In this document: positions 5,053-24,319 of the stretch, one piece after another
Numbering within the stretch: position 1 is the stretch's first letter
How the letters are laid out: the number at the start of each line of letters is the position of its first letter
Assembly (NCBI GenBank): GCA_003152215.1
Contig: PLZP01000065.1
Span: 1,423-36,041, forward strand
Direction: 5' to 3'
Source: Acidimicrobiaceae bacterium
Lineage (GTDB): Bacteria > Actinomycetota > Acidimicrobiia > Acidimicrobiales > RAAP-2
Length of the DNA stretch: 34,619 bases
Notes under the pieces: model-generated
Database searches by the model: none
What the model was told of the DNA's origin: nothing
The model's input: the letters and a program-made list of their open reading frames with translations, nothing else
Made by a program: the position numbers and the translations under genes

Positions 5053-5109
5053 TCAAACGTCGCGCGGCATTGGGAGCGAACACGCGTCAGCTAAGAGTGG
5101 AGGTAGTAC

Positions 5110-5259
5110 GTGGTTTCCATTGTTGGGGCTTTGACGACCTCGAGCGTGCATCGTGGATCGATTCTTCCCGCGGCGCGGATCATTGTGCTCGGTGTGCCCC
5201 TCACGTTCGCCTTCCTCTACTGGTTCATCATCGTGCGGCGAAGGGACGGTTCGAAATGA
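5110..5259 (+). CDS. Small single-TM membrane protein (49 aa), overlapping the start of the DUF3445 gene
   Basis: GTG at 5110. Reads MVSIVGALTTSSVHRGSILPAARIIVLGVPLTFAFLYWFIIVRRRDGSK* with one hydrophobic segment and an RRR positive cluster. Its TGA (5257-5259) overlaps the ATG (5256-5258) of the next gene. Below the 60-aa ORF-track cutoff. Confidence 0.5.
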   Translation: MVSIVGALTTSSVHRGSILPAARIIVLGVPLTFAFLYWFIIVRRRDGSK

Positions 5260-6071
5260 GGGCATTCCCTTACGTCCCGCTCGAGGCGAAGGGCTGGCGC
5301 ATGGCGATGGGTCTTCGGCCCCTCGATATGGACCAATGGCTCGAGGTCGACGAACGCCGCGACGTCGAGCTCGAGGAGAAGCGACAACTCTTGGCGTCGA
5401 AGTACGACGCCGTCGTGGCAACGAATCCCGCGGGGGACGAGGGCAGCGCCGAGCTGCTCTCTGACGTCACGGCGTTCTTGGCGACGCACTTCTCGAACTT
5501 CACGACGGTGACGTCACCTGACGACCACCCGATCGTCGCGGCGTCACGAGTGGTCCAAGAGGACCTGTGTGTTCTCGTACGAAGTGACGCGTGGCGACTC
5601 CAGGCTGCGTGCGTCTGCTTTCCTTCGCGCTGGAACCTTGCGTCAAAATTGGGCACGACGCTTGACGACATTCATCGGCCGGTGCCGGGCTACGACGTGG
5701 AACTCAGTCGTCCGACCAATGCATTCTTCGAGCGGCTCAAGCCGGAGCGCTCGTTCTGGCGGCTCAACTGGACCCTGATCGACAATCCCGCACTGCATCA
5801 GCCAACGAGCGCTCGCCACAGTCCCGACGGTGACCTCGACAACTGGTATTTCCGTGTCGAGCGACAGACTCTTCGACGCCTTCCCCACAGCGACGCGATC
5901 ATCTTCACGATTCGAAACTACGTCACGTCGGCGCGTAATTTGTGTGACGCGGACGCGGCGTTCGGGGAGACGCTCCTGCTCAATCTCGACACGGCGCCCG
6001 ACGCGATGCTCGAGTACAAAGGGTGGCGAGGTGTGGCGGACCGCCTGCGCGAGTCGCTCAGCGCAACGTGA
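5256..6071 (+). CDS. DUF3445 family protein (heme-dependent oxidative N-demethylase-like)
   Basis: MRAFPYVPLEAKGWRMAMGLRPLDMDQWLEVD... plus LVRSDAWRLQAACVCFPSRWNLASKLGTTLDDIHRPVPGY and the LPHSDAIIFTIRNYV region are typical of DUF3445/HDOD. The start at 5256 is preferred over 5070. Confidence 0.78.
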   Translation: MRAFPYVPLEAKGWRMAMGLRPLDMDQWLEVDERRDVELEEKRQLLASKYDAVVATNPAGDEGSAELLSDVTAFLATHFSNFTTVTSPDDHPIVAASRVVQEDLCVLVRSDAWRLQAACVCFPSRWNLASKLGTTLDDIHRPVPGYDVELSRPTNAFFERLKPERSFWRLNWTLIDNPALHQPTSARHSPDGDLDNWYFRVERQTLRRLPHSDAIIFTIRNYVTSARNLCDADAAFGETLLLNLDTAPDAMLEYKGWRGVADRLRESLSAT

Positions 6072-10122: not shown

Positions 10123-11274
10123 GTGAACTGGGTCGACATCCTCATCGTGGCCATCGTTATCGTTGCGGCGATTCGAGGGTGGTACCAAGGGGCGATCCGC
10201 CAGGCTCTTGGTTGGTTGGGCTTCGTCGCCGGCTTCCTCGTGGGGTCGGCCGTCGCCCCGTCCCTGTCGACTCGAATCACTCATGCGGCGTGGCGGCCAA
10301 TTCTCGCCATTGCCATCGTCATCGTGGTCGCCTACATCGGTCACTTCGCCGGGCATATCGTCGGCTCGACCATTCGCAGGTCGATCAAAATGATCAAGCT
10401 GGGCTTCGTCGACTCGGGTCTAGGTGTCGCCGTGGGCGTTGCGGGTGCATTGCTCACGTGTTGGCTCCTCGCGGCGCTGCTGGTTGCGACGCCGTGGACC
10501 ACGGTCGCCGCCGGCGTCCAGAGTTCAAGAGTCGTGAAGGCACTTGACGGCGCGCTACCTCCCGTGCCCTCCTTTGAGGCGAAGTTGCAGACGCTCCTGC
10601 ACAACGCGAACTTTCCAAGTGTGTTCGCGAGCGTCGTCGCACCGAGTGTGCCCTCGGCCGGTTCTGCTCCCACGCTGAAGGCAAACACCCTCGCTCGCGG
10701 TGGGCCAAGTGACGTCGTGAAGGTGCTCGCCACTGGATGCACTGACACGCACCAAGGCACCGCGTTCTTCATTCAGCGTCACGTTGCGGTAACGAACGCG
10801 CACGTGGTGGCCGGGGCGACCAGCGTTACCGTCGATGGAGCGAAGGCCATTGTCGCCTCTTTCGACCCGGTAAATGACATCGCGATCCTGCGCGTTCCCT
10901 CACTCAACCTCGTGCCGATGCGATTTCTCGCTTCCGTACCGACGTCGGGCTCGGAGGCCTCGGTCGTTGGTTTCCCACTGGACGGGTCGCGAACACTCAG
11001 TCCGAGCGTCATCAGCGGTGAGATCACCGCCCAATCACGAGACATCTATGACCAGAATCTCTTTAATCGAACCGTGCTCGTCCTGTACGCCAATGTCGAT
11101 CCGGGCAACTCGGGAAGTCCAGTGATCGTGAACGAGCACGTGGCCGGCGTCTTGTTCTCTAAGTCACTCAGTCAGTCTTCGACGGCGTACGCCATCCCCG
11201 CCACAACCGTGGAGCACGATCTGGCACGGACACCGGCGAGCGGCTCTGCGTCAACGAAAAGTTGTGTGAGTTAA
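10123..11274 (+). CDS. MarP-like membrane serine protease (CvpA-type TM domain plus trypsin-like domain)
   Basis: N-terminal CvpA-like domain (NWVDILIVAIVIVAAIRGWYQGAIRQALGWLGFVAGFLVG), then VTNAHVVAG (His), DPVNDIAILRV (Asp), DPGNSGSPVI (Ser). Confidence 0.88.
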   Translation: MNWVDILIVAIVIVAAIRGWYQGAIRQALGWLGFVAGFLVGSAVAPSLSTRITHAAWRPILAIAIVIVVAYIGHFAGHIVGSTIRRSIKMIKLGFVDSGLGVAVGVAGALLTCWLLAALLVATPWTTVAAGVQSSRVVKALDGALPPVPSFEAKLQTLLHNANFPSVFASVVAPSVPSAGSAPTLKANTLARGGPSDVVKVLATGCTDTHQGTAFFIQRHVAVTNAHVVAGATSVTVDGAKAIVASFDPVNDIAILRVPSLNLVPMRFLASVPTSGSEASVVGFPLDGSRTLSPSVISGEITAQSRDIYDQNLFNRTVLVLYANVDPGNSGSPVIVNEHVAGVLFSKSLSQSSTAYAIPATTVEHDLARTPASGSASTKSCVS

Positions 11275-12608
11275 CTCGCCGAGCGTACGGCCGCCGCAAG
11301 GACACTCAGCCCGTCGGCCAACTGCTCGTCGCTGATGACCAACGGCGGCAAGAGGCGCACGACGTTGCCGTAGGTGCCACACGAGATTGCGAGCACGCCC
11401 TGCTGGTTGCAGTAGGTGACGATCGCCTTGGCCGCCGCGGCGTTGGGCTCTTTGGTGCCGGGGTTGACGAACTCCATGGCCACCATCGCGCCTCGACCTC
11501 GGACGTCGCCGATGATGGCGACGTCCTGCTGCAATGAGCGAAGATTGGCGAAGAGAATCTCTCCAATCTCACGCGCGCGCGCCACCAGGTTCCGGTCCCG
11601 CAGTGTCTTGATAGTTGCCAGCGCCGCGGCGCACGCGACGGGGTTGCCCCCGTAGGTGCCACCGAGGCCGCCTTCGTGCACGGCGTTCATCAACTCGGCA
11701 CGACCAGTGACACCCGCTAGCGGCATGCCACCGGCGAGGCCCTTGGCGGTGGTGACGATATCGGGTACGACATCTTCGTGGTCGACGGCGAACCAGTCGC
11801 CAGTGCGACAGAATCCGCTCTGAATCTCATCGGCAATGAACACGACGCCGTTCTTGGTCGTCCACTCAGACAGCGCCGGCAAGAAGCCGTCAGCGGGGAC
11901 GATGAATCCGCCCTCACCTTGGATCGGTTCGATCAGGAGCGCCGCGACGTTGTGTGCACCGACCTGGGTCTCAATCAACTTGATGGCCAACGCGGCGGCC
12001 TCCGCTCCGCTGAGTCCATCGAGGAACGGGTAGCTCATCGGGACTCGGTAGATCTCTGGCGCGAAGGGACCGAAGCGGTCCTTGTAGGGCATGTTCTTGG
12101 CGGTGAGCGCCATCGTCAAGTTGGTGCGGCCATGGTAGGCGTGGTCAAAGACGATGATTGCCTCACGGCCAGTCGCGAGTCGCGCGACCTTGACGGCGTT
12201 CTCGATGGCCTCAGCGCCGGAGTTGAACAGAGCGGACGTCTTCGCGTGCGAGCCGGGCGTGAGTGAAGCGAGTTCCTCACAGACCTCCACGTAGCTCTCG
12301 TAGGGCGTGACCATGAAACAGGTGTGCGTGAAGGCGGCCACTTGGTCGCTCACGGCGTCGATGAGCTCGGGCACGGCGTGGCCAATTGAGGTAACGGCGA
12401 TGCCGGAACTGAGGTCCAGTATCCGGTTGCCGTCGATGTCGACCAGGATTGCACCCTCGGCGCGCTCAATATATATGGGGAAGCCTTGGGTGAGACCGGC
12501 GCTCACGACGGCCTTGCGGCGCTCGTGGAGCGCCCGCGACTTTGGTCCGGGCAGTTCGGTGACGACGTTTCGTTCGGTACCGACGGAAGAATCGATTGAA
12601 GAGACCAT
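11271..12608 (-). CDS. gabT: 4-aminobutyrate / beta-alanine aminotransferase (class III PLP)
   Basis: FPIYIERAEGAILVDIDGNRILDLSSGIAVTSIGH, ALFNSGAEAIENAVKVAR, FDHAYHGRTNLTMALTAK, FIADEIQSGFCRTG, TTAKGLAGGMPLAGVTGR (PLP Lys). Confidence 0.92.
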   Translation of the reverse strand: MVSSIDSSVGTERNVVTELPGPKSRALHERRKAVVSAGLTQGFPIYIERAEGAILVDIDGNRILDLSSGIAVTSIGHAVPELIDAVSDQVAAFTHTCFMVTPYESYVEVCEELASLTPGSHAKTSALFNSGAEAIENAVKVARLATGREAIIVFDHAYHGRTNLTMALTAKNMPYKDRFGPFAPEIYRVPMSYPFLDGLSGAEAAALAIKLIETQVGAHNVAALLIEPIQGEGGFIVPADGFLPALSEWTTKNGVVFIADEIQSGFCRTGDWFAVDHEDVVPDIVTTAKGLAGGMPLAGVTGRAELMNAVHEGGLGGTYGGNPVACAAALATIKTLRDRNLVARAREIGEILFANLRSLQQDVAIIGDVRGRGAMVAMEFVNPGTKEPNAAAAKAIVTYCNQQGVLAISCGTYGNVVRLLPPLVISDEQLADGLSVLAAAVRSAS

Positions 12609-12808: not shown

Positions 12809-12887
12809 GTCGAACAGCCTACAACGTCGACTTGCGGGGACTCTGGGCGGCGAAACGCCGTTGCGCGACCATCTACGATTCGACTTC

Positions 12888-13352
12888 ATGGGGAAGACGG
12901 ACGATGACGAACTGTTCATGCGTACGGCACTCGATCTCGCGGTTGTGGCCGCGACGCACGACGAGGTGCCGGTTGGTTGCGTTCTCGTAGAGCACGGCGT
13001 CGTCATTGGCGTCGGGGAGAATCGCCGAGAGCGCGACCATGACCCCACGGCGCACGCCGAAATGGTCGCGCTACGCGACGCGGCACTCTCGCGCTCCACG
13101 TGGCGGATGGAGAGTGTTACGGCGTACGTCACGTTGGAGCCGTGCGTGATGTGCGCGGGCGCACTGCTGAACGCCCGCGTTGAACGGGTCGTGATCGGCG
13201 CGCTCGACGAAAAGGCCGGCGCCGTCGGATCTCGTTACAACCTCTTGAGCGATCCACGTCTGTTGCACGAAGCGTCGATCACCTACGGCGTCTTGGCGGA
13301 CGAGTCGAGCGAGCTCCTGCAGTCGTTCTTCCAAGAGCGCCGTCCCACGTAA
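12888..13352 (+). CDS. tadA: tRNA adenosine(34) deaminase
   Basis: HDEVPVGCVLVEHGVVIGVGENRRERDHDPTAHAEMVALRDAA...TLEPCVMCAGALLNARVERVVIGALDEKAGAVGS. HAE and PCxxC zinc-deaminase motifs present. Starts after the tRNA. Confidence 0.93.
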   Translation: MGKTDDDELFMRTALDLAVVAATHDEVPVGCVLVEHGVVIGVGENRRERDHDPTAHAEMVALRDAALSRSTWRMESVTAYVTLEPCVMCAGALLNARVERVVIGALDEKAGAVGSRYNLLSDPRLLHEASITYGVLADESSELLQSFFQERRPT

Positions 13353-13427: not shown

Positions 13428-14564
13428 GTGTTGCATGAAATCGACCAGACATTGGATGGACAGCGAGTCGTCGTCGTCGGCGCGGGCGTGCTGGGCACGA
13501 TGCACGCGCTGTTTGCACTCGCACGCGGAGCGAGTGTGGTGCACCTCGAGCGCGACCTGGTGCCGAGCGGCGCCACGGTGCGCAACTTCGGTCTCATCTG
13601 GGTGAGTGGTCGCGCGGTCGGACAAGAGCTCGCTCTGGCGCAACGCGCCCGGGACCTTTGGGAGCACATCGCGCTCGACGTGCCGGACATCGGATTTCGG
13701 GCCAATGGGTCGATCACGTTGGTGAACAACCTCCACGAACTTCAGGTGGTGGAGAAGGCACTCCTTCGCGACGACGCGCACGCGCGAGGGTTCGAGTTGC
13801 TCGACCGCGACGCAGTTGTCAAGCGAAATCCCGCGCTGCAGGGTGTGTTCGTGTCGGGGCTGTTCTGCAGTCGCGACGCAGCCGTGGAGTCGCGAACGGC
13901 ACTTGGAGCGCTTCGCTCCTTCATGGAGCAGACTGGACACTACGACTACCTGCCGGGACGCGAACTCGTGGGCATTGAGGACAACGGCGTTGTCGATCAT
14001 CGAGGTATCCATCACGGTGGCGACCACGTCATCCTGTGTTTAGGCGCAACCCTGAGCGGCTTCGCCGCGGAACTTTTCGAGGACGAACCACTTCGAAGAG
14101 TCCGCCTCTACATGGCCGAGACGGAACCACTCGGTCGGACCTTGACGACATCAATCGCCAATGGTGACTCGTTCCGTTACTATCCGGGATTCGCCGCGTT
14201 CGCGAACGAATTCCTCGAGCGGCAACCGCCGCTCGCCGCGGACTACGCCATCCAACTGCTTTGCCAACAGCGTCTCCATGGAGGACTGACGATTGGCGAC
14301 ACCCACGAACCCGAGACGCCCGGACTCTTTGAGACACTGGATCGTCCAATGGACATCATCGAAGCGGCCGCCCGGCTCGTCATTGGCCCGGAGATGCCGC
14401 GCATCGAACGTCGCTGGAGCGGTGTCTACCATCAGCTGCGTGATCCCGCGCCGGGCGAGGTGTACTTCTGCAAAGAAGTCGCTCCCGGGGTCAGCGCTAT
14501 AACCGGAGCCGGGGGACGAGGCATGACCCTCGCCCCGGCCATTGCAGAGGAGAGCTTCCAGTGA
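13428..14564 (+). CDS. FAD-dependent oxidoreductase of phosphonate-catabolism clusters (TIGR03364-like, DAO family)
   Basis: DGQRVVVVGAGVLGTMHALFALARGASVVHLERD (dinucleotide fold), ATVRNFGLIWVSGRAVGQELALAQRARDLW, AITGAGGRGMTLAPAIAEES. Overlaps a phosphonatase-like gene by 4 bp. Confidence 0.82.
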   Translation: MLHEIDQTLDGQRVVVVGAGVLGTMHALFALARGASVVHLERDLVPSGATVRNFGLIWVSGRAVGQELALAQRARDLWEHIALDVPDIGFRANGSITLVNNLHELQVVEKALLRDDAHARGFELLDRDAVVKRNPALQGVFVSGLFCSRDAAVESRTALGALRSFMEQTGHYDYLPGRELVGIEDNGVVDHRGIHHGGDHVILCLGATLSGFAAELFEDEPLRRVRLYMAETEPLGRTLTTSIANGDSFRYYPGFAAFANEFLERQPPLAADYAIQLLCQQRLHGGLTIGDTHEPETPGLFETLDRPMDIIEAAARLVIGPEMPRIERRWSGVYHQLRDPAPGEVYFCKEVAPGVSAITGAGGRGMTLAPAIAEESFQ

Positions 14565-15238
14565 ACGACGTTGAATTGATCTGTTTTGATATGGCGGGTA
14601 CGACCCTGATTGACAACGGCTTGGTGCTCGAAGCCTTCCGTCGAACCATTGACGATCTTGAGGTCACGGGCGAAGACGCGACGTTGGCCGAGGCGTACGT
14701 GATCGAGACGATGGGCCAATCCAAGATCGAGGTATTTACCGCGCTATTCGCCGAACGCGCCTCGGTGGCCAACGAGGCGTTCGAGCGAAACTTCGTCGAC
14801 GCCGCACAGGAACTTGGTGTCAGTGAGATCCCCGGTGCGCGTTCAACGGTTGAGACGCTGCGCAGCATCGGACTCCAGGTGGCGTTGACGACGGGCTTCT
14901 CGCCGAGCACCCGAGAGGCGTTGATAGAAGAACTCGGATGGGGTGATCTCTTTGAGCTTCGGGTGTCGCCCGCCGACGCCGGGCGGGGTCGACCGGCGCC
15001 CGACATGTTGTTGTGGTGCGCGTTGAAGTCACAGATCACGGCGATGAACGCCCTCATGGTGGTGGGTGACACGTCATCGGACATGCAGGCCGGACTTCGC
15101 GCGGGTGCCGGCTACTGCGTTGGTGTGCTGTCGGGCAACGACGACGCCCCCCGGCTGTTGGAAGCGGGCGCCGACGACGTCATCGACTCGGTCGTTGACC
15201 TACTCGGGTTCGACCTCCTAACTGAACCTCGAGTGTGA
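14561..15238 (+). CDS. Phosphonatase-like HAD hydrolase (phosphonoacetaldehyde hydrolase-like, TIGR03351-like)
   Basis: LICFDMAGTTLIDNG (DxAGT motif of the phosphonatase clade), cap segment MGQSKIEVFTALF, AGRGRPAPDMLLW, VVGDTSSDMQAGLRAG. Confidence 0.85.
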   Translation: MNDVELICFDMAGTTLIDNGLVLEAFRRTIDDLEVTGEDATLAEAYVIETMGQSKIEVFTALFAERASVANEAFERNFVDAAQELGVSEIPGARSTVETLRSIGLQVALTTGFSPSTREALIEELGWGDLFELRVSPADAGRGRPAPDMLLWCALKSQITAMNALMVVGDTSSDMQAGLRAGAGYCVGVLSGNDDAPRLLEAGADDVIDSVVDLLGFDLLTEPRV

Positions 15239-15299
15239 CGAGTCGTTCGCAAAGAATCCGTGTAGCCGTCACACTTGTTGCTCCGTCGCGTCACACTCG
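15230..15299. promoter_or_regulatory. Candidate operator cluster: three copies of an 8-10 bp GTCACACT(CG) element
   Basis: cgagtgtgac at 15230-15239 (inverted), gtcacactt at 15268-15276, gtcacactcg at 15290-15299. They lie between the HAD gene stop and the binding-protein gene. Confidence 0.3.
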
Positions 15300-15368
15300 G
15301 CTAACTCTCGACACTTACTGTCATCGCGAGTCACCAACGGGGTGCACTCACCTTTAGGAGGACAACGC

Positions 15369-16499
15369 GTGTCGTTAAACAAAATGAAGGTGGCGGTGGC
15401 CGCCGGACTGTTAAGCACCGTGGTTGCCGGTGTTTCGATGACCGTCGGAGCCAACGCAGCCACGAAGAAAGTCAACTGGGCAACCGTGACATCGGCGAAG
15501 GCCGGAGGCGGTATGGCCGCCCTCGTCAAGGCCGCACAGAAGGAGGGTCACGTCAACGTGATCACCATTCCTCTGTCGGGTTGGGCCAACTACGGGGCCA
15601 TCATGAAGGACTTCACCAAGAAGTACGGGATCCACATCAATGACGCGAACCCGAACGGTTCGAGCGCCCAGGAAATCACCGCGATCCAGCAGGACAAGGG
15701 TCGCGCGGACGCGCCGGACGTGGTTGACGTCGGCACCACGTACGCCACGAGCAACCTCGCTCTGTGGGCTCCGTACGAGGTGGCGAACTGGAGTCAGATT
15801 CCCTCGAGCGCCAAGGATGCCAAGGGTCGCTGGTTTGATGACTACGGCGGCTACGTCGCGATTGGTTGTGATACCAAGATCGTGACCACCTGCCCGACAT
15901 CATTCGCCGACCTGACGAACCCGATTTACAAGAACGAGGTCGCCATTAATAACGACCCGACCTCGGCGTCGGCGGCCTTCTACGCCGTCTGGGCTGCGTC
16001 GATTGCGAACGGTGGCTCCTTCAACAACGTCACGCCGGGCATTGCGTTCTTTGCCAACCTGAACAAGATCGGAAACTTTGTTCCCGGGGGCACCGCAGCC
16101 ACTGCGGCGGCCGGTTCGACGCCGATCCTCATCTGGTGGGACTACCTGCAGAATGGTGTCGCCTCGAGCGTGCCGGGCTGGAAGTCAGTGATTCCCACGG
16201 ATGGCACGATTTCGGCGTACTACACCCAGGCAATTACGAAGGACTCGCCCGACCCCGCGGCGGCCCGTCTCTGGGAGGAGTACCTGTACTCGAGCGTCGG
16301 TCAGAACCTGTTCCTTCAGGGCTACGCCCGCCCGATTGAATTGGCGGCAATGACGGCGAACAAGTCCGTCAGCCAGAGCTTCTTGTCGAAGTTGCCCGCG
16401 GCTCCTAAGGGTACGTTGACCCTTCCCACCATTGCGCAGGTCACGTCCGCATCATCCACAGTTGACGCCAACTGGGCTGCCGCAATCGCCGCCGGTTGA
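15369..16499 (+). CDS. ABC transporter substrate-binding protein (Fe3+/2-aminoethylphosphonate type)
   Basis: SD TAGGAGG before GTG at 15369. Signal peptide MSLNKMKVAVAAGLLSTVVAGVSMTVGANA. Extracellular binding-protein body (AAQKEGHVNVITIPLSGWANYGAIMKDFTKKYGI...). Followed by permease and ATPase genes. Confidence 0.86.
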   Translation: MSLNKMKVAVAAGLLSTVVAGVSMTVGANAATKKVNWATVTSAKAGGGMAALVKAAQKEGHVNVITIPLSGWANYGAIMKDFTKKYGIHINDANPNGSSAQEITAIQQDKGRADAPDVVDVGTTYATSNLALWAPYEVANWSQIPSSAKDAKGRWFDDYGGYVAIGCDTKIVTTCPTSFADLTNPIYKNEVAINNDPTSASAAFYAVWAASIANGGSFNNVTPGIAFFANLNKIGNFVPGGTAATAAAGSTPILIWWDYLQNGVASSVPGWKSVIPTDGTISAYYTQAITKDSPDPAAARLWEEYLYSSVGQNLFLQGYARPIELAAMTANKSVSQSFLSKLPAAPKGTLTLPTIAQVTSASSTVDANWAAAIAAG

Positions 16500-16520
16500 T
16501 CGAACAACTCATTCATCACC

Positions 16521-17486
16521 ATGTCTGAGCTCACCACTGACACCAGTCCTTCCCCTTCTGGTGTCAGTGGTGAGCTCAGCGAGAAGAAATTCACGCCGGG
16601 TGCACTGTTTCGGTCGGTCCGAACCGGTGCACCCGTCGCACCTTTTCTGCTGTACGTAACACTCGGTCTGCTGATTCCCACGGTCGCCATTATCAATCTG
16701 GCGTTCCGGTCAAACTCGGGCAAACTCACGTGGGCCAACATCACGACGATTCTCGCTCCAGGCAAGATGACCGATGGAATCATGATCGGTGGTCAGTTCC
16801 GTGCCGGCTTCGAAAACAGCCTCAAGCTGGCTCTGGTCACCGCCATCATTCCGGGCATCCTCGGTACCTTTATTGCGTACGCCATCGCCACGTCCAAGCA
16901 CGAACCGTTCAAGCGCATCACCTCGGCCTGCTCGGGTGTGCTCGCGCAGTTCGGCGGCGTGAACCTCGCATTCATGTTTATTGCCGCACTGAACGCCACT
17001 ACCGGTGTCGTCACGAAGTGGCTCTCCAAGATTGGGCTCGACCCCTGGAATCACGGCTTCAATCTCTACAAGTTCTGGGGCGTGGCGTTCGTCTACATGT
17101 ACTTCCAGCTTCCACTAATGATCCTCATCATCACGCCGGCCTTTGCGGGTCTCCAGGAGTCGTGGCGTGAGGCCGCGGGCGGTTTGGGCGCATCGTCGTG
17201 GCGCTACTGGCGGCACGTGGGAATACCCGTCCTGGCGCCCGCCGTGCTTGGCAGTATGTTCCTCCTCTTTGGTAGTGGCTTCTCCGCCTACGCGACGGCC
17301 GAAGCGCTGACCGGAGGCACCATTGCGATTACCCCGATCCAGATCGGTTCCATTTTGAATGGCAACGTCCTCTCGGGTCAGACGCACATTGGTTACGCCT
17401 TGGGCTTCGCCATGATCGTGATTCTGCTCATCTCGGTCGTGTTTTACGCCCTCTTACGTCGAAGGACGTCGCGATGGCTTCGTTAG
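16521..17486 (+). CDS. ABC transporter permease (phosphonate-type cluster)
   Basis: Multi-TM protein with a binding-protein-dependent permease loop (EAAGGLGASSWRYWRHVGIPVLAPAVLGS). The start is uncertain: no clear SD, and a strong hairpin covers the first codons. Confidence 0.87.
   Translation: MSELTTDTSPSPSGVSGELSEKKFTPGALFRSVRTGAPVAPFLLYVTLGLLIPTVAIINLAFRSNSGKLTWANITTILAPGKMTDGIMIGGQFRAGFENSLKLALVTAIIPGILGTFIAYAIATSKHEPFKRITSACSGVLAQFGGVNLAFMFIAALNATTGVVTKWLSKIGLDPWNHGFNLYKFWGVAFVYMYFQLPLMILIITPAFAGLQESWREAAGGLGASSWRYWRHVGIPVLAPAVLGSMFLLFGSGFSAYATAEALTGGTIAITPIQIGSILNGNVLSGQTHIGYALGFAMIVILLISVVFYALLRRRTSRWLR
16525..16579 (+). repeat. Perfect 22-bp inverted repeat with 11-nt loop
   Basis: Arms ctgagctcaccactgacaccag (16525-16546) and ctggtgtcagtggtgagctcag (16558-16579), exact reverse complements. 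Spacer tccttcccctt. Confidence 0.97.
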
Positions 17487-18322
17487 AGCTCGGACAGGTC
17501 CTCGAGCACGACCATTTCATGGAGGAGTACAGCCGGGGTAGCGAGGGCCTCTCGTGGTGGCGTCGCGTGCACTGGGGACGCGGCGTTGCGCTGTTCCTCG
17601 CCGCCGCGTACTTCATCATCCCCTTCTACGCCGCCATGCAATTCTCGCTCGCCAACAAATACGGACAGTTTTCCTTGCAGCCACTGACCCAGATAGCTGA
17701 CGCGCCGCAATTCCTCTCGGCCCTGTGGCTCTCGACCGAGTTGGCCGTGGCGACCATGGTGATCGTCATGGGCCTGATGGTGCCGACCATGATCTACGTG
17801 CACCTGCGGATGCCACGATTCCGTCGCGTCATGGAAGTCATCACGATTCTGCCGATCGTCATTCCACCAATCGTCCTCATCGTGGGGGTCGATGGTGTCA
17901 CGCCAAGCTGGTTGAAGGCGTCACAGTGGCTCCTCGCGCTGGTCTACGTCGTGCTCGCGATGCCCTACGTGTACCGAGCACTCGATGCCGGACTGGGCGC
18001 GCTCGATCTAAAGACGTTGGTCGAGGCGTCTCGTTCGTTGGGATCAGGGTGGGCCAACACCATTTGGCGCGTGCTCGTACCGAATTTGCGTAGTGCGCTC
18101 ATGTCGGCGTCGGTGCTGACACTCGCTCTCGTCTTTGGCGAGTTCACGATTGCGAGTCTCGACGGATGGCAGACGGTCCCCGTGTGGATCTACCTCGCGC
18201 CGACCGACGACCCACGTATCAACACGCTCGTCGCGATGATGGCCCTCTTGGGGACGTGCCTCGTCCTCACCGTTATCGTGTCCCTCGACCGTTCGAAGAA
18301 CCGAAACTCTAGGAGGAGCTGA
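17474..18322 (+). CDS. ABC transporter permease
   Basis: Multi-TM protein with a permease EAA-like loop (VEASRSLGSGWANTIWRVLVPNLRSALMSASVLTLALVFGEFTIAS). Overlaps both neighbours. Confidence 0.88.
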   Translation: MASLELGQVLEHDHFMEEYSRGSEGLSWWRRVHWGRGVALFLAAAYFIIPFYAAMQFSLANKYGQFSLQPLTQIADAPQFLSALWLSTELAVATMVIVMGLMVPTMIYVHLRMPRFRRVMEVITILPIVIPPIVLIVGVDGVTPSWLKASQWLLALVYVVLAMPYVYRALDAGLGALDLKTLVEASRSLGSGWANTIWRVLVPNLRSALMSASVLTLALVFGEFTIASLDGWQTVPVWIYLAPTDDPRINTLVAMMALLGTCLVLTVIVSLDRSKNRNSRRS

Positions 18323-19425
18323 TGCTCATGGATATAGAGTCCCAAGCACCCATGGCGAATGCCGCGACGCAGCCCCGGGGCGGTGCACCCGTCGTGCTGG
18401 ACAACCTCACGCGCCAGTTCGGCGCGACCAGAGCACTCGACGGCTTCTCGCTGAACATCGCGCCGGGCGAGTTCGTCGCCCTGCTCGGTCCCTCGGGCTG
18501 TGGCAAAACGACGGCGTTGCGTGTGCTCGCCGGCTTCGAACGACCCGACGTCGGCAGAGTGCTGGTCGACGGGAAGGATGTGGTGCACGTTCCCGCCCAG
18601 AAGCGTGACATGGGCATGGTCTTTCAGAGCTACTCACTCTTCCCGAACATGACGGCCCGCGACAACGTTGCGTTCGGACTGCAGCTGCGCCATCAAAAGA
18701 GTGGACCCCGACGCGCCCGCGCGGTCGAACTCTTGGGACTGGTTGGCTTGGACGAGCATGTCTCGAAGTACCCGCACCAACTTTCGGGTGGGCAACAACA
18801 ACGCGTTGCTTTGGCCCGCGCGCTCGCCATCGAGCCCAGAGTACTGCTCCTTGACGAACCGCTCTCGGCGCTCGACGCGAAAGTTCGGGCCGAACTGCGC
18901 GATCAGATTCGCGCGCTGCAGCAACGACTTGCCATTACGACCGTGTTCGTTACTCACGACCAGGAGGAGGCGCTCTCAATGGCCGACCGCGTGTGCGTGA
19001 TGTCGCGCGGACGCGCCGAGCAGATAGCGACGCCGGCCGAGCTCTATTCAAAGCCGTCGACGGAGTTCGTGGCGAGGTTCGTTGGAATCTCTAGCCGCGT
19101 GGGTGTGACCCGTACCGGTGACTCGGTGCAGTTGTTTGGGCGCGACGTGAAGATTCGCGGCGACGTGCCAACGACGGACGGGCCCTTGGATGCCCTGCTT
19201 CGTCCCGAGGACGTTGACGTCCATGTCGCACCGACGGGACTCGGGGTGGTCACGCACAAGAGTTTCCTCGGGGCCACGACCAGACTCGAGATTGGCATTG
19301 CGGGGGCCACGGTGAAAGCCGACGTGATGAGCAGTGCTGCCGCCGACTTTGAACTGGGGACTCGCGTTGAGCTGAGCGCCAACGCCCGCGACGTGCTCGT
19401 TACCGAGGCGCAGTCAGCGACCTGA
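18322..19425 (+). CDS. ABC transporter ATP-binding protein (spermidine/Fe3+/phosphonate type)
   Basis: Walker [11 protein letters not shown], signature [15 protein letters not shown], Walker [13 protein letters not shown], switch His [10 protein letters not shown]-terminal TOBE-like region. Confidence 0.96.
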
Positions 19426-19960
19426 CGATTGGCTCCCAGTCGCGAAGCTCTCCGACGTGCAGTCCTTCAATCTTCCCGGCGTCGTCCCACGTACGCAACG
19501 CAATGGCGTCATTGAAGCCCGGGTGGGCCTCGAAGCGTTCGCACTCCTCGTCGCTCAGCAGTCCGCCTTGAGCAATCAATGTTGCCTGTGACGCGGCGGA
19601 GAGCCGCTGGTGGTAGTCGGGCTCTTTCGTACACAGCCAGCGCTTCGCGATCACGTGCAGGGCGACCGGTTGCGCGACGGTTGGACCGAAGAGTGGTGCG
19701 AGTATTCGTGCCCCGAGTGCTTCGTGGCGATCGTCGTCGTGACTCATATCGAAATCTTCGTTGCCCTGCACGTCAAGCACGAGGTGGCCAACGTCGTGGA
19801 AGAGCGCGGCGACCATGAGTTCGTCGTTCACGCCGTCGGCCCGTGCGAGGGCCGCGCACTGCAGCGCGTGGTCGTTTTGCGTGATGCCTTCGCCGTAGTG
19901 CTGCGAACCCTTGGCCTCATAGAGGGCGAAGAGTTCGTCAATGTTCGAGGGTCCACTCAT
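19400..19960 (-). CDS. HD-domain protein of phosphonate clusters (TIGR03276 / PhnZ-like)
   Basis: MSGPSNIDELFALYEAKGSQHYGEGITQNDHALQCAALA...VAALFHDVGHLV...DDDRHEALGARILAPLFGPTVAQPVALHVIAKRWLC...RTWDDAGK. HD and accessory His/Asp residues match PhnZ-type HD oxygenases. ATG at 19990 is an alternative start. Confidence 0.82.
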   Translation of the reverse strand: MSGPSNIDELFALYEAKGSQHYGEGITQNDHALQCAALARADGVNDELMVAALFHDVGHLVLDVQGNEDFDMSHDDDRHEALGARILAPLFGPTVAQPVALHVIAKRWLCTKEPDYHQRLSAASQATLIAQGGLLSDEECERFEAHPGFNDAIALRTWDDAGKIEGLHVGELRDWEPIVRSLTAPR

Positions 19961-20053: not shown

Positions 20054-23000
20054 CTACGGCGTGTCGTGATGCACGAGCGGTGAGGGTGCGGCGCCAAGGT
20101 ATTCGTCGAGCATTTCGAGCAGTCGTCGAAGGTCAATAGGTTTGGTGAGGTAGTCGTTCGCCCCGGCCTGGAGAAAACGTGCGGTCTGCCAGTCGGTCGC
20201 GTCGGCTGAGAGTACGACGACGGGTATGTCCTTCGTCCTTGGATCGTCTCGCAACCGGTGCAGTACGTCGAATCCGTGGATGTCGGGGAGGTGGACATCG
20301 AGCAAGATGAGGGCCGGCTTGAGTTGCTGTGCCAATTCGATGCCCATCCCGCCCTGCAAGGAAGTAACTAAATGCACCGTCGTTCGATTCAACATGAGTC
20401 GCTCAATCAAGTGGATGTTGGAAACATTGTCCTCGATGTAGAGGACGGTCGTCTCGGGTAGCGCAGGCTTGGTGGTCGCGACTCTCACTCTGGGCTGCGG
20501 CGCGACCGAACGCGGGACATCAGTGGCTGGCACGTCAATCCAAAAGGTCGATCCCTTTCCAGGCACGCTCTCAACGCCAACGGAACCACCGATTGCTTCA
20601 ATGAGCGACTTGGAGTGGGCAAGGCCGAGACCCGTCCCTTGGATGCCCTTCGCATCGGCGTCGAGACGTTCAAAGGCGATGAAGAGTCGATCCACCATCT
20701 CAGGGGTAATGCCCGCACCGGTGTCAGTGACGTTCAGTCGGACCCGATCGCCCTGCGTGATGCACTCGATGGTGACGGTGCCGTGCACGGAGTTGAACTT
20801 GACCGCGTTGCTCATGAGATTGAGGAGCACCTGGGTCAGCCGCTGTTGGTCTGAGAGGACCTGCGCGTCGTGACAGTCGCGGGCAACCAACGTAATGCCG
20901 GCGTCACTGGCTTGGGGCGTCATGATCCGAATGCACTCGTCGACGACATCATCGACCGACACGGATTCGAGTGAGACATTGATGTGTCCCGATTCGACGC
21001 GCGAAATGTCGAGGACTTCGTTGATGAGGTCGAGCAGATGACTTCCGGACTTAAAGATGTGTTCGACGAGTTCCAGCTGATCGGGTGACTCGAGTTCCAT
21101 TTGGAGGATCTGTGAGAAGCCCAGTACGGAGTTGAGTGGCGTACGAAGTTCGTGGCTCATCCGCGACATGAACTCGCTCTTGGCGAGGTTGGACTGCTCG
21201 GCCGCCTCCCTGGCGTTCTTCATCGCCTCTTGCGCCGCAAACTCTTCGGAGACATCGCGCGAGACCATGACGGCCTGGGGCACCTGACCGTCGATGTTGC
21301 GCAACAACCGAGCGCGCGTCTGTATCCGCATCCACGTTCCGTCGGCGTGGTGTGCACGAAAGCGCATGGTGATGGTGTTGTCGGCGCCCAGACGAAAGAG
21401 ACGCTTCAGGGCGGCGACGTACTCGAACTGGTCGTCGGGGTGGACAATGAAACGTACCGATTGGCCCCGGCGATCGGCTCTCGGGATTCCGAACAGTCGT
21501 TCGGCCCCGGCGCTGGAATTGATCACGCGAAGTTGGTTGTCGATAGTCGTGATGGAATCCGGTGCAGCTTCGAGAATTGCGGACGTCAGGGCAACACTGT
21601 CGGCCAATGCCGCCTCGGCGGCGACGGCATCTGAAATGTCGCGAGAGACGATCACGGCTCTCGGAGCGCGTCCGCTCTCATCGGACAACACCAAACCACG
21701 AGCTTCAATCGTGAGTGTGTGACCGTCCTTGTGCTGCGCGCCAAAACGGATTCTGAACGGTTCCTTCCTCTTCTCTCGGAAGAATCGGCGAAGTTCACCT
21801 TCGACCCGCTCCCTGTCGTCGGCAAGGACGACGTCGAGCGCGCTCGCACCCACTCGTTCGGCGGGCGTCAGGCCGAAAGTCCGTTTTGTCGACGGACTTG
21901 CCTCGAGGATGTTCAGATCTGCGTCAATCATGATTATCGGGTCAGGCGCCGCCTCCAATACGGCCCGAGTGGTCTCGACGCTTGCGGCGAGGTCCTCCTC
22001 CGCCTTAACCGACTCGGACATATCGCGGGCAATAAAGACCGCCAAATTTGGTGGGCCCAGCGGGTTGTACAAACTGCGACCTCTCGATTCGATCGTCGCC
22101 ACCTCCCCGCCGCCGCGCAGCACCCGGTAACGAGCGGTGACAATCTCGTCGCTGTCGAACATCCGTTGGCCCGCCTCGAGCACGAGGCCTAAGTCGTCGG
22201 GATGGACGTCGTCCAAGGAGGCCAGACCGGACCGTTGGTCGGCGGTCGAGCCGAACAAGCTCGCACTCGCGAGGTTCGATTCGACGACTTGGAAATCTCG
22301 ATTGACCATCACGATGCCGTCGGCCGCCGCGTCGAAGATTGCTCTCGTTGTCTCAAGGCTGGCCGCGAGTGCCTCTTCATTCTCAACGGTTTTTGAAATG
22401 TCGCGCGCGATGAAGACCGCCACGTTCGTTGGCCCTTGCGGGTTAAAGAGCCCTCGACCCCGTGACTCAATTTTCACCCAATGACCATCTGCGTGTTGTG
22501 CCCGGTAGCGAACAGTGACGATCTCGTCGCTCGTGAAGAGTCTCTTCGCCGCGTCGCGTACCGCCGCCACGTCGTCGGGGTGAATGAACGTCATCGCGAC
22601 CTGGTTCGCTTCCCGATCTGACGTGACGCCAAGCATGTGGGCGACGGCTGCGTTTGATTCCACGATGTGAAAGTTCCGGTCCATCATCACGATGCCGTCG
22701 ACCGCTGCGTCGAAGATTGCTCTGCTCAACTCGAGACTCTCGGTGAGAGCGGCCCTCGCAGCGTTCGCTTCGGTCGCGTCGCGACCGATGAAGACCAGTC
22801 TGGTTGGTACTCCGTCGTCACTGCGAAGGGATCGCCCCCTCGCCTCCAGGGCAACGTAGTGGCCATCGGCATGGCGTATGCGAAAATTGAGGATCGCCAC
22901 GCCGCCATCTTCGAAGGAGCGTAGAAGCGTGCGCTTGATGTTCTCTCGGTCATCGGGATGGATGAGATCCAGCACATTATGGTTGCGACGGACGGTTGAT

Positions 23001-23500
23001 GAGTGGCCATGGATCTCTTCGCTCGATGCATTGGTTTCAACGATGTTGAGGTCACGGTCAATGACCACGATCGAGTCGAGTGCCGCGTCGGAGATCGCAC
23101 GAGTCGTCTCCAGGCTCTCGGCGAGGGTGGCGAGCGTTGTCTTTCGATCGGTGATGTCTCGACCAATGGCGTACAGAGTGTCGCCCATCATGCCGGCGGT
23201 CCAGTCGGTCCAACGATACGCACCGTCTTTGCACCGGATGCGGGTCTCATGGACGACGATCGTCTCTTTGGAGCCGTCCATCAGTACTTGGTATTCGAGC
23301 ATCGTCGATGCGAGGTCGTCGGGATGAATCAAATTGAAGACTGACGTTCCGACCAGTTCGTCGTGCGACCATCCGAGCGTGGTCAACCATGCGGTGTTCA
23401 GATCCGCGACGTTGGCGTTCGCATCGGCAATCAACATAAGGTCGCTCGAAATCTGAAAGAAACCTCGGAAGTCTGATTCCAGAGAAGCAATGCGGGCCAT
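20054..23500 (-). CDS. Soluble hybrid histidine kinase: six tandem PAS domains, HisKA, HATPase, C-terminal receiver
   Basis: Repeats of the form LAxSLETTRAIxDAAxDxIVxxDRDxxIVESN. MSHELRTPLNSVLGFSQIL (H-box), NLMSNAVKFN (N), GTGLGLAHSKSLIEAIGG (G), LYIEDNVSNIHL...ILLDVHLPDIHGFDVLHRLR (REC). The internal ATG at 23500 has SD AGAAGGAG 6 nt upstream; the track start is 23521. Confidence 0.93.
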   Translation of the reverse strand: MARIASLESDFRGFFQISSDLMLIADANANVADLNTAWLTTLGWSHDELVGTSVFNLIHPDDLASTMLEYQVLMDGSKETIVVHETRIRCKDGAYRWTDWTAGMMGDTLYAIGRDITDRKTTLATLAESLETTRAISDAALDSIVVIDRDLNIVETNASSEEIHGHSSTVRRNHNVLDLIHPDDRENIKRTLLRSFEDGGVAILNFRIRHADGHYVALEARGRSLRSDDGVPTRLVFIGRDATEANAARAALTESLELSRAIFDAAVDGIVMMDRNFHIVESNAAVAHMLGVTSDREANQVAMTFIHPDDVAAVRDAAKRLFTSDEIVTVRYRAQHADGHWVKIESRGRGLFNPQGPTNVAVFIARDISKTVENEEALAASLETTRAIFDAAADGIVMVNRDFQVVESNLASASLFGSTADQRSGLASLDDVHPDDLGLVLEAGQRMFDSDEIVTARYRVLRGGGEVATIESRGRSLYNPLGPPNLAVFIARDMSESVKAEEDLAASVETTRAVLEAAPDPIIMIDADLNILEASPSTKRTFGLTPAERVGASALDVVLADDRERVEGELRRFFREKRKEPFRIRFGAQHKDGHTLTIEARGLVLSDESGRAPRAVIVSRDISDAVAAEAALADSVALTSAILEAAPDSITTIDNQLRVINSSAGAERLFGIPRADRRGQSVRFIVHPDDQFEYVAALKRLFRLGADNTITMRFRAHHADGTWMRIQTRARLLRNIDGQVPQAVMVSRDVSEEFAAQEAMKNAREAAEQSNLAKSEFMSRMSHELRTPLNSVLGFSQILQMELESPDQLELVEHIFKSGSHLLDLINEVLDISRVESGHINVSLESVSVDDVVDECIRIMTPQASDAGITLVARDCHDAQVLSDQQRLTQVLLNLMSNAVKFNSVHGTVTIECITQGDRVRLNVTDTGAGITPEMVDRLFIAFERLDADAKGIQGTGLGLAHSKSLIEAIGGSVGVESVPGKGSTFWIDVPATDVPRSVAPQPRVRVATTKPALPETTVLYIEDNVSNIHLIERLMLNRTTVHLVTSLQGGMGIELAQQLKPALILLDVHLPDIHGFDVLHRLRDDPRTKDIPVVVLSADATDWQTARFLQAGANDYLTKPIDLRRLLEMLDEYLGAAPSPLVHHDTP

Positions 23501-24319
23501 ACGGCGCTCCTTCTGCGACATCTAAGAAGGAGAACGTCGCAGTCGAGGCACTCACGAGTCTCGCGAACAACGTGCCTTAAAGCCAACCTAACCTCGCTGA
23601 ATTGCGCTTTCGGCGGAAGAACCGCTCGTCGGGAGTGTTCCGACCTCCAATTCGCTCCACAGTCGTTATAAAGAGCGACCGGGACTCTCGACTCAAATTC
23701 TCAACAATTCGTGACGTCGAGGTGAAACGGAGCGATTCTTCGCCAACCAAGGTGTTACGAAGCGACGAAGATTGGGAGATCGATTGAAAAGACCGATCCC
23801 TTTGCGGGCGTACTTTCTTCTGGAGTTCGCCCGACCTCCCCGAGGTCAGGAACGGCTGCCTTGTCATCCGACACGACCTAAATCCCCACTTTCGACCCGC
23901 CACTCAGGAAACGAGGGGCTAGGTTCCGCAACAGAGTTCGACCTTCATCAGGTGACTGGTCCACCCGTGCAAAACGTACCTGCAAACCCTGGCCGTTTAT
24001 GAGTGGTTGTGGTGAGGTTGTCCACGGTGCACGCAACGACGGCCGCCACTGAGCAACGCCCGTGGGCCACCATCGGCTATCTCCGGGGGTCATGGGTCGT
24101 AAAGAGGCATCTTTCCTCCTTGAATTCACGGCCACGCCGACGTCGTGGGCAATCCCGGACAAGAATCTGTCTGTGACGTTGAACGGGGACTCCAAGGTGC
24201 ACACGTTGCGACCGCACCACCCGATCGATGGCGGTGTCCTAGCGCTGATCACGTTTTTCGCGAAGGGGGGTCGCGGCCCATCGCAAAGGACCGGCATCCG
24301 CATCCGCGCCAGCTCGATT

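Follow-up and report, generated by a model that had tools for sequence, protein, structure and literature searches.

A cluster of seven genes at 13428-19960 of a 34,619-nucleotide stretch of Acidimicrobiaceae DNA (assembly GCA_003152215.1, contig PLZP01000065.1, positions 1,423 to 36,041; hereafter the window) is probably an operon for the uptake and hydrolysis of aminophosphonates, with an HD-domain oxygenase added as a side branch. In the proposed pathway, an ATP-binding cassette (ABC) transporter consisting of a solute-binding protein (SBP), two permeases, and an ATPase would import aminoethylphosphonates. A flavin adenine dinucleotide (FAD)-dependent amine oxidoreductase would oxidatively deaminate N-methyl-2-aminoethylphosphonate (N-methyl-AEP, M1AEP), and probably 2-aminoethylphosphonate (AEP), to phosphonoacetaldehyde, with methylamine or ammonia as by-product and O2 converted to H2O2, and would in this way replace the transaminase PhnW. 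A HAD hydrolase, the TIGR03351 counterpart of PhnX, would then split phosphonoacetaldehyde into acetaldehyde and phosphate by way of a lysine Schiff base. The HD protein would have been inherited from a PhnY*-PhnZ pair at this locus, its active site having outlasted the loss or displacement of PhnY*, and would most likely convert imported (R)-1-hydroxy-AEP ((R)-HAEP), which lies beyond the hydrolytic route, to glycine and phosphate. The substrates of these particular proteins are those that we infer from the observed families, residues, synteny, partner exchange, and PhnY* absence; the PbfD, PhnX, and PhnZ reactions themselves have been demonstrated in the literature for relatives.

All seven open reading frames (ORFs) that a sequence-only reading had placed in this region were confirmed, and the families it had named were the best matches when profile hidden Markov models (HMMs) were applied. 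The FAD gene (13428..14564, + strand, GTG start) encodes a PbfD-type protein that matched TIGR03364 over its full length (2-365/365) with 281.0 bits (curated cut-off 285.1). The HAD gene (14561..15238, +) begins in the GTGA that it has in common with the FAD stop, a 4-nt overlap, and its product matched TIGR03351 best and over the full length with 193.2 bits (cut-off 218.9). The match of the same protein to the canonical phosphonatase model TIGR01422 was only 76.6 bits (cut-off 220), so that it should not be named PhnX; the earlier label of phosphonatase-like HAD missed that this is a sister family. Downstream on the same strand are the SBP (15342..16499; PF13343, 72.5 bits), permease 1 (16521..17486) and permease 2 (17474..18322), which are both PF00528 proteins and overlap by 13 nt, and the ATPase with a TOBE domain (18322..19425), for which PhnT2 (TIGR03265, 386.5 bits, cut-off 457.7) was the best of 191 families. 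The HD gene (19400..19960, -) is convergent with the ATPase gene, overlapping it by 26 nt, and has no PhnY* partner; its ORF reaches 19990 (TTG start), with a likely ATG start at 19960, precisely where the sequence-only reading had placed the end of the cluster. The product matched the PhnZ/TmpB-type mixed-valent di-iron oxygenase family TIGR03276 best and over its full length with 209.3 bits (cut-off 214.6). The family assignments are right even though every curated NCBIfam cut-off was missed, narrowly or clearly.

The gene order GabT (-), TadA (+), FAD, HAD, SBP, two permeases, ATPase (all +), and HD (-) is complete in three Acidimicrobiaceae metagenome-assembled genomes (MAGs; loci L137, L138, and L140) and is followed in L139 as far as the contig end. 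Because it recurs in L137, L138, and L140, where the individual proteins from FAD to HD are 61-82% identical to those of the window, the order is not attributable to chance. The named relatives carrying the locus are Acidimicrobiales/Acidimicrobiaceae MAGs, several of them labelled bog or palsa. In a tree of FAD proteins, the window protein fell in a fully supported six-member group with those of L137-L141, and all six adjoin a TIGR03351-type HAD. In the source genome (G000; 2.65 Mb, 127 contigs, 89.5% complete), no PhnW (best TIGR02326 match 30.5 bits), no PhyH-type PhnY* (no PF05721 match), and no carbon-phosphorus lyase (no PhnJ match) was found, so that the statement of the sequence-only reading that PhnW and PhnY are not recognizable holds genome-wide as far as this assembly reaches. 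A PhnW-like match of 30 bits on contig C117 was rejected as background.

The exchange of partners around the HAD gene bears on its substrate. Among the best 80 named actinobacterial HAD loci, 63 have a FAD gene directly upstream, in two deep groups. Nine FAD proteins sampled from both groups had TIGR03364 as their best family and scored above its cut-off or at most 3 bits under it (for related FAD proteins, 282.8 bits in L137 and 292.4 bits in G231), while the FAD protein of G214 fell far under it. In G190, about 75 nt separate the HAD gene from the end of a PhnW gene (443.7 bits, cut-off 400.8) that lies upstream on the same strand; the G190 HAD exceeds the TIGR03351 cut-off and the window HAD is 47-48% identical to it. 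The congener G141 has the HAD, no FAD homologue genome-wide, and a PhnW elsewhere. On a plasmid of Rhizobium tumorigenes, an operon of identical gene order has a canonical PhnX (TIGR01422, 336 bits) in place of the HAD, and in Asticcacaulis HD, FAD, and phnX occur together. No upstream HAD partner was identified with Pfam in G064, G060, G131, and G010.

Since PhnW can feed the HAD protein and PhnX can take its slot, its substrate is, by inference, most simply phosphonoacetaldehyde, and the conserved Schiff-base lysine together with the interchangeable upstream partner points the same way. K55 of the window HAD aligns with the Schiff-base lysine K53 of PhnX and is invariant in 25 aligned actinobacterial homologues, in which the motifs D10, A12-G13-T14, MGQSK55, TTGF, GRPxPD, and GDT..D are invariant or nearly so; a few more distant HAD proteins outside this alignment deviate in the motifs. 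The PhnX signature (cap lysine K55, D10, AGT, GRP143-145, and GDT169-171) is present throughout in the window protein. Its structure model (pLDDT, the predicted local distance difference test score, 90) had PhnX, beta-phosphoglucomutase-like, and phosphoglycolate-phosphatase folds among its top PDB matches, a mixture by which the fold search does not discriminate PhnX from other C1-cap HAD proteins.

The window FAD protein is proposed to be the phosphonoacetaldehyde source that replaces PhnW, acting on N-methyl-AEP and AEP. It has a full-length DAO fold of the glycine/sarcosine oxidase type (PF01266, 146 bits, 1-348/353), and its AlphaFold model (pLDDT 92.5) matched PDB glycine and sarcosine oxidases with template modelling (TM) scores of about 0.7-0.76. 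TIGR03364 includes PbfD1 of Acinetobacter baumannii, and both PbfD1 and PbfD2 convert M1AEP and AEP to phosphonoacetaldehyde using O2; the text of the model already mentions synteny with phosphonatase-like enzymes (PMC10590968). This activity and the alternation of FAD and PhnW genes lend support to the earlier suggestion that the FAD enzyme makes phosphonoacetaldehyde from AEP or an N-alkyl AEP. Because the genome appears to be without PhnW, the enzyme is likely to accept unmethylated AEP too, an activity that has been reported for PbfD2.

The HD protein was compared with PhnZ at 13 metal, loop, and second-sphere positions, and all 13 are conserved (H..HD..H..H..D, H62, K108, and the loop Tyr/Glu; loop function taken from PMC8177086). 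The loop reads YGE (YxE), one residue shorter than the YxxE of PhnZ, and is the same in PhnY*-linked relatives; the PDB matches included TmpB (107 bits) and PhnZ (94 bits). Its origin can be read from a series of loci within one genus, in which the position between the GabT-TadA flank and HD holds FAD, HAD, and transporter in G000, HAD and transporter in G141, the transporter without FAD and HAD in G250, and none of the three in G130. A same-strand PhyH gene stands directly before HD in G250, G130, G055, G063, G165, G235, and G047, and when compared with the PhnY model for methylphosphonate hydroxylase (cut-off 500), the PhyH proteins of four loci reached 229-261 bits. The locus lacks this gene in G000, G141, L137, L138, and L140; genome-wide, no PF05721 match was obtained in G000 and G141, the L137 and L140 genomes yielded no PhyH, and the single PhyH of the L138 genome did not match a PhnY*-type query. 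The loci without PhnY* are thus precisely those that hold HAD or FAD-HAD. The split of 5:7 is perfect and would have a chance of 1/792 if the genomes were independent, which they are not, and it is therefore presented as a clear pattern and not as a test. In a tree of HD proteins, the window HD lies among PhnY*-linked ones, nearest those of G141, L137, and G250. Because of this position and the PhyH-HD pairs of congeners, the window HD is most likely the second half of a former PhnY*-PhnZ-type pair whose first half is gone. The absence of PhnY, which the sequence-only reading had correctly seen, is therefore not incidental, since congeners pair the same HD gene with PhnY*.

The role of the HD protein is most likely the salvage of imported (R)-HAEP, which supports the earlier view of a second branch. 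PhnW and PhnX fail to process this compound properly, and homologues of PhnZ are found repeatedly next to phnWX and phnWAY clusters, never with PbfA (PMC8154272). Hydroxymethylphosphonate (HMP) is a further possible substrate because GmPhnZ accepts both HMP and (R)-HAEP (PMC10574752). An extended proposal, for and against which we find the balance about even, holds that TIGR03351 is a second phosphonoacetaldehyde-hydrolase family, for which PhnW and a TIGR03364 oxidase are interchangeable suppliers of substrate, and also that in this acidimicrobial lineage the locus was converted from a PhnY*-PhnZ one, the oxidase-hydrolase module having replaced PhnY* while the HD protein and the transporter were retained, so that the HD protein was left as a stand-alone salvage enzyme for natural (R)-HAEP.

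A different HD subgroup was observed convergent with HAD genes in L080-L085 and L058; in G162, G146, G206, and G068 an upstream FAD gene is present as well. The L080-L085/L058 proteins have the loop D-[GED]-E, without the PhnZ loop Tyr and H62, and may have a different substrate. Since HAD genes elsewhere in the class converge on this subgroup without Tyr and H62, more than one HD subgroup is associated with the cluster.

Elsewhere in the same genome, at C117:4749-6401 (-; locus L056), a 551-residue protein that had been overlooked in the sequence-only reading fuses an N-terminal TIGR03276 HD domain to a TmpA (2-trimethylaminoethylphosphonate dioxygenase) domain, so that a hydroxylase and a C-P cleaving oxygenase domain are carried on one chain; its HD motif is HDxGW, not HDxGH. 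The window HD could still belong to a complete oxidative pathway, in which hydroxylation falls to the TmpA-like domain of the fusion, while overflow or another methylation state is left to the window HD. This is the most probable of the alternatives. In its favour, the TmpA domain scored above its cut-off (427 versus 400 bits), and an HD and a TmpA gene (L191) or a TmpA gene (L199) adjoin FAD-HAD and the same transporter type; we nevertheless consider it unlikely, because the fusion has an HD domain of its own and because G141, with the same locus, keeps its HD gene although the searches run there revealed no fusion of this kind.

A second alternative concerns hydroxylated substrates and would have the FAD enzyme deaminate 1-hydroxy-AEP to 1-hydroxy-phosphonoacetaldehyde, with the TIGR03351 HAD, unlike PhnX, hydrolysing the product. 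The proposal stands in the TIGR03364 model description (PMC10590968), an alpha-hydroxyphosphonate enzyme, the HD protein, adjoins FAD-HAD, and PhnX refuses the hydroxy-aldehyde (PMC8154272), so that a distinct family for that compound could exist. It is nonetheless improbable, given that the PhnW directly upstream of HAD in G190 and the combination of PhnW and HAD without FAD in G141 point to phosphonoacetaldehyde, that a canonical PhnX occupies the same slot of a matching operon, that M1AEP and AEP are substrates of both PbfD1 and PbfD2 (PMC10590968), and that a second route for HAEP would be redundant alongside the HD protein.

Profile searches gave the SBP 41-45 bits with PhnS models, far under the cut-off, and the SBP was rejected as substrate evidence, neither its PDB nor its family matches being informative. 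That the transporter serves another nutrient, such as ferric iron or polyamine, with the catabolic genes adjacent by accident, is very improbable: models of iron, sulfate, polyamine, and AEP transporters all fit the SBP and permeases weakly and to a similar degree, and there are weak PDB matches to iron-binding proteins, yet the same transporter type stands beside FAD-HAD in distant actinobacteria (L164, L191, L193, and L199) and in G269, a homologous transporter belongs to the Rhizobium FAD-phnX operon, the G250 transporter accompanies PhnY*-HD alone, and PhnT2 was the best family for the ATPase.

Several findings weigh against the assignment of an aminophosphonate oxidase-hydrolase operon with an HD branch. 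The FAD, HAD, and HD proteins all score under the curated cut-offs of their own families. The FAD protein shares only 27% identity with the TIGR03364 copy found in A. baumannii at an ABC-FAD-PhnW-HAD locus and can be assigned neither to PbfD1 nor to PbfD2; a similar distance has been reported within PbfD itself, with about 30% between PbfD1 and PbfD2 (PMC10590968). For the SBP, the best PDB match (5t1p, 128 bits) has no stated ligand and the families are uninformative. Of two models whose cut-offs the HD protein missed by far, that for hydroxymethylphosphonate dioxygenase gave a better score (174 bits) than that for TmpB (145 bits). In 17 of the 80 HAD loci no FAD gene lies directly upstream. 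The PhnW gene of G141 (contig C12, L133/L125; above cut-off) is situated amid carbohydrate-metabolism genes, between alpha-amylase and DUF3417/phosphorylase genes, and not in a phosphonate cluster. G296, the genome of L137, has a FAD gene plus a PhnW elsewhere, and FAD and PhnW are for this reason not strictly exclusive.

The cluster type has already been published, and the window is a further member, in Acidimicrobiia, with TIGR03351 in place of PhnX. The sequence-only reading had recognized a known type and had called its substrate unassigned; the type is not an unassigned one, since PbfD, PhnX, transporter, and PhnHD have been described together in Achromobacter (PMC11203657), and annotated plasmids have this arrangement too. 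That Achromobacter cluster (hpnW-phnSXUT / lysR / phnHD, with no phnW inside it) likewise has a TIGR03364 FAD protein replacing PhnW, a phosphonatase, an AEP-type ABC transporter, and an adjoining TIGR03276 HD, and it differs in its assayed phosphonatase PhnX, where the window has a TIGR03351 HAD, in its LysR regulator, and in a phnW elsewhere; no LysR was seen adjoining the window cluster. Mariniblastus fucicola PbfD2-PhnX (PMC10590968) also combines a FAD oxidase and a phosphonatase in a genome without PhnW, but the phosphonatase is PhnX and the pathway scheme of that paper has no HD branch. A. baumannii PbfD1 belongs to the same TIGR03364 family, in a cluster that holds PhnW and PhnX. The R. 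tumorigenes plasmid (NZ_CP117258; LysR-FAD-phnX-SBP-permease-permease-ATPase) has six metabolic and transport genes ordered alike and the same 4-nt FAD/HAD overlap, and differs in its TIGR01422 PhnX and in having no HD within the 13-kb stretch read. With PhnY*/PhnZ, GmPhnY/GmPhnZ, and TmpA/TmpB, the window HD has in common the metal and substrate residues of the PhnZ family, the differences being the absence of PhnY* from the genome and the YxE loop.

What is new is evidence on the substrates of two unassigned enzymes, from the partner exchange of the HAD and from the PhnY*-paired origin of the HD protein. A literature search turned up no study in which a TIGR03351 protein had been assayed; such proteins, labelled merely 'phosphonatase-like', are common in Actinomycetota, where at least 566 candidate loci were confirmed as relatives, and the PhnW-HAD pairing and FAD/PhnW alternation predict phosphonoacetaldehyde for the whole family. 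The series of loci within one genus suggests that, for the same nutrients, a bacterium can exchange a route by oxygenases for one by oxidase and hydrolase, or the reverse. It also makes it possible to test what PhnZ-type enzymes do when PhnY* is missing.

Further fusions were encountered. Six loci from other families of the order (L229, L232, L233, L234, L236, and L237) encode three-domain proteins of about 790-835 residues that join a type I phosphodiesterase/nucleotide pyrophosphatase domain (PF01663), an HD domain (TIGR03276), and a TmpA domain. Identification of the PF01663 domain as PhnA was rejected, because it matches nucleotide pyrophosphatases/phosphodiesterases and no PhnA model; it would perhaps free the phosphonate from an ester ahead of oxidation. 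No published bacterial example of a phosphodiesterase-HD-TmpA fusion was found. A 545-residue fusion of a PhnY*-like PhyH and an HD domain (L062:9269-10903, -; genome G027) is a bacterial PhnY-PhnZ fusion counterpart; in fungi, PhnY and PhnZ are joined in the protein PhoF (PMC10574752). The TmpA gene that in L191 and L199 adjoins FAD-HAD together with a transporter of the same type, accompanied in L191 by an HD gene, suggests one cluster serving AEP in several N-methylation states.

To the left of the cluster, the conserved flank consists of GabT, a 4-aminobutyrate transaminase (11271..12608, -; TIGR00700, 585.7 bits, cut-off 506.65), and TadA (12879..13352, +; NF008113, 164.8 bits, cut-off 150); GabT recurs in this position in L136-L140, L072, and L069. 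A hidden replacement of PhnW or PbfA by GabT was considered and rejected: as it exceeds the GABA transaminase cut-off and also flanks the locus where PhnY*-HD stands alone, it is a conserved flank outside the assigned pathway. A promoter scan found no sigma-70-like site. Some 7 kb from the cluster, the window encodes a HODM_asu-like haem-dependent oxidative N-demethylase (5070-6071, +; PF11927, 198 bits), which might conceivably play a part in the handling of methylamine. Just past the HD gene (20054-23521, -) lies a hybrid histidine kinase of 1155 residues with six PAS boxes and a receiver domain.

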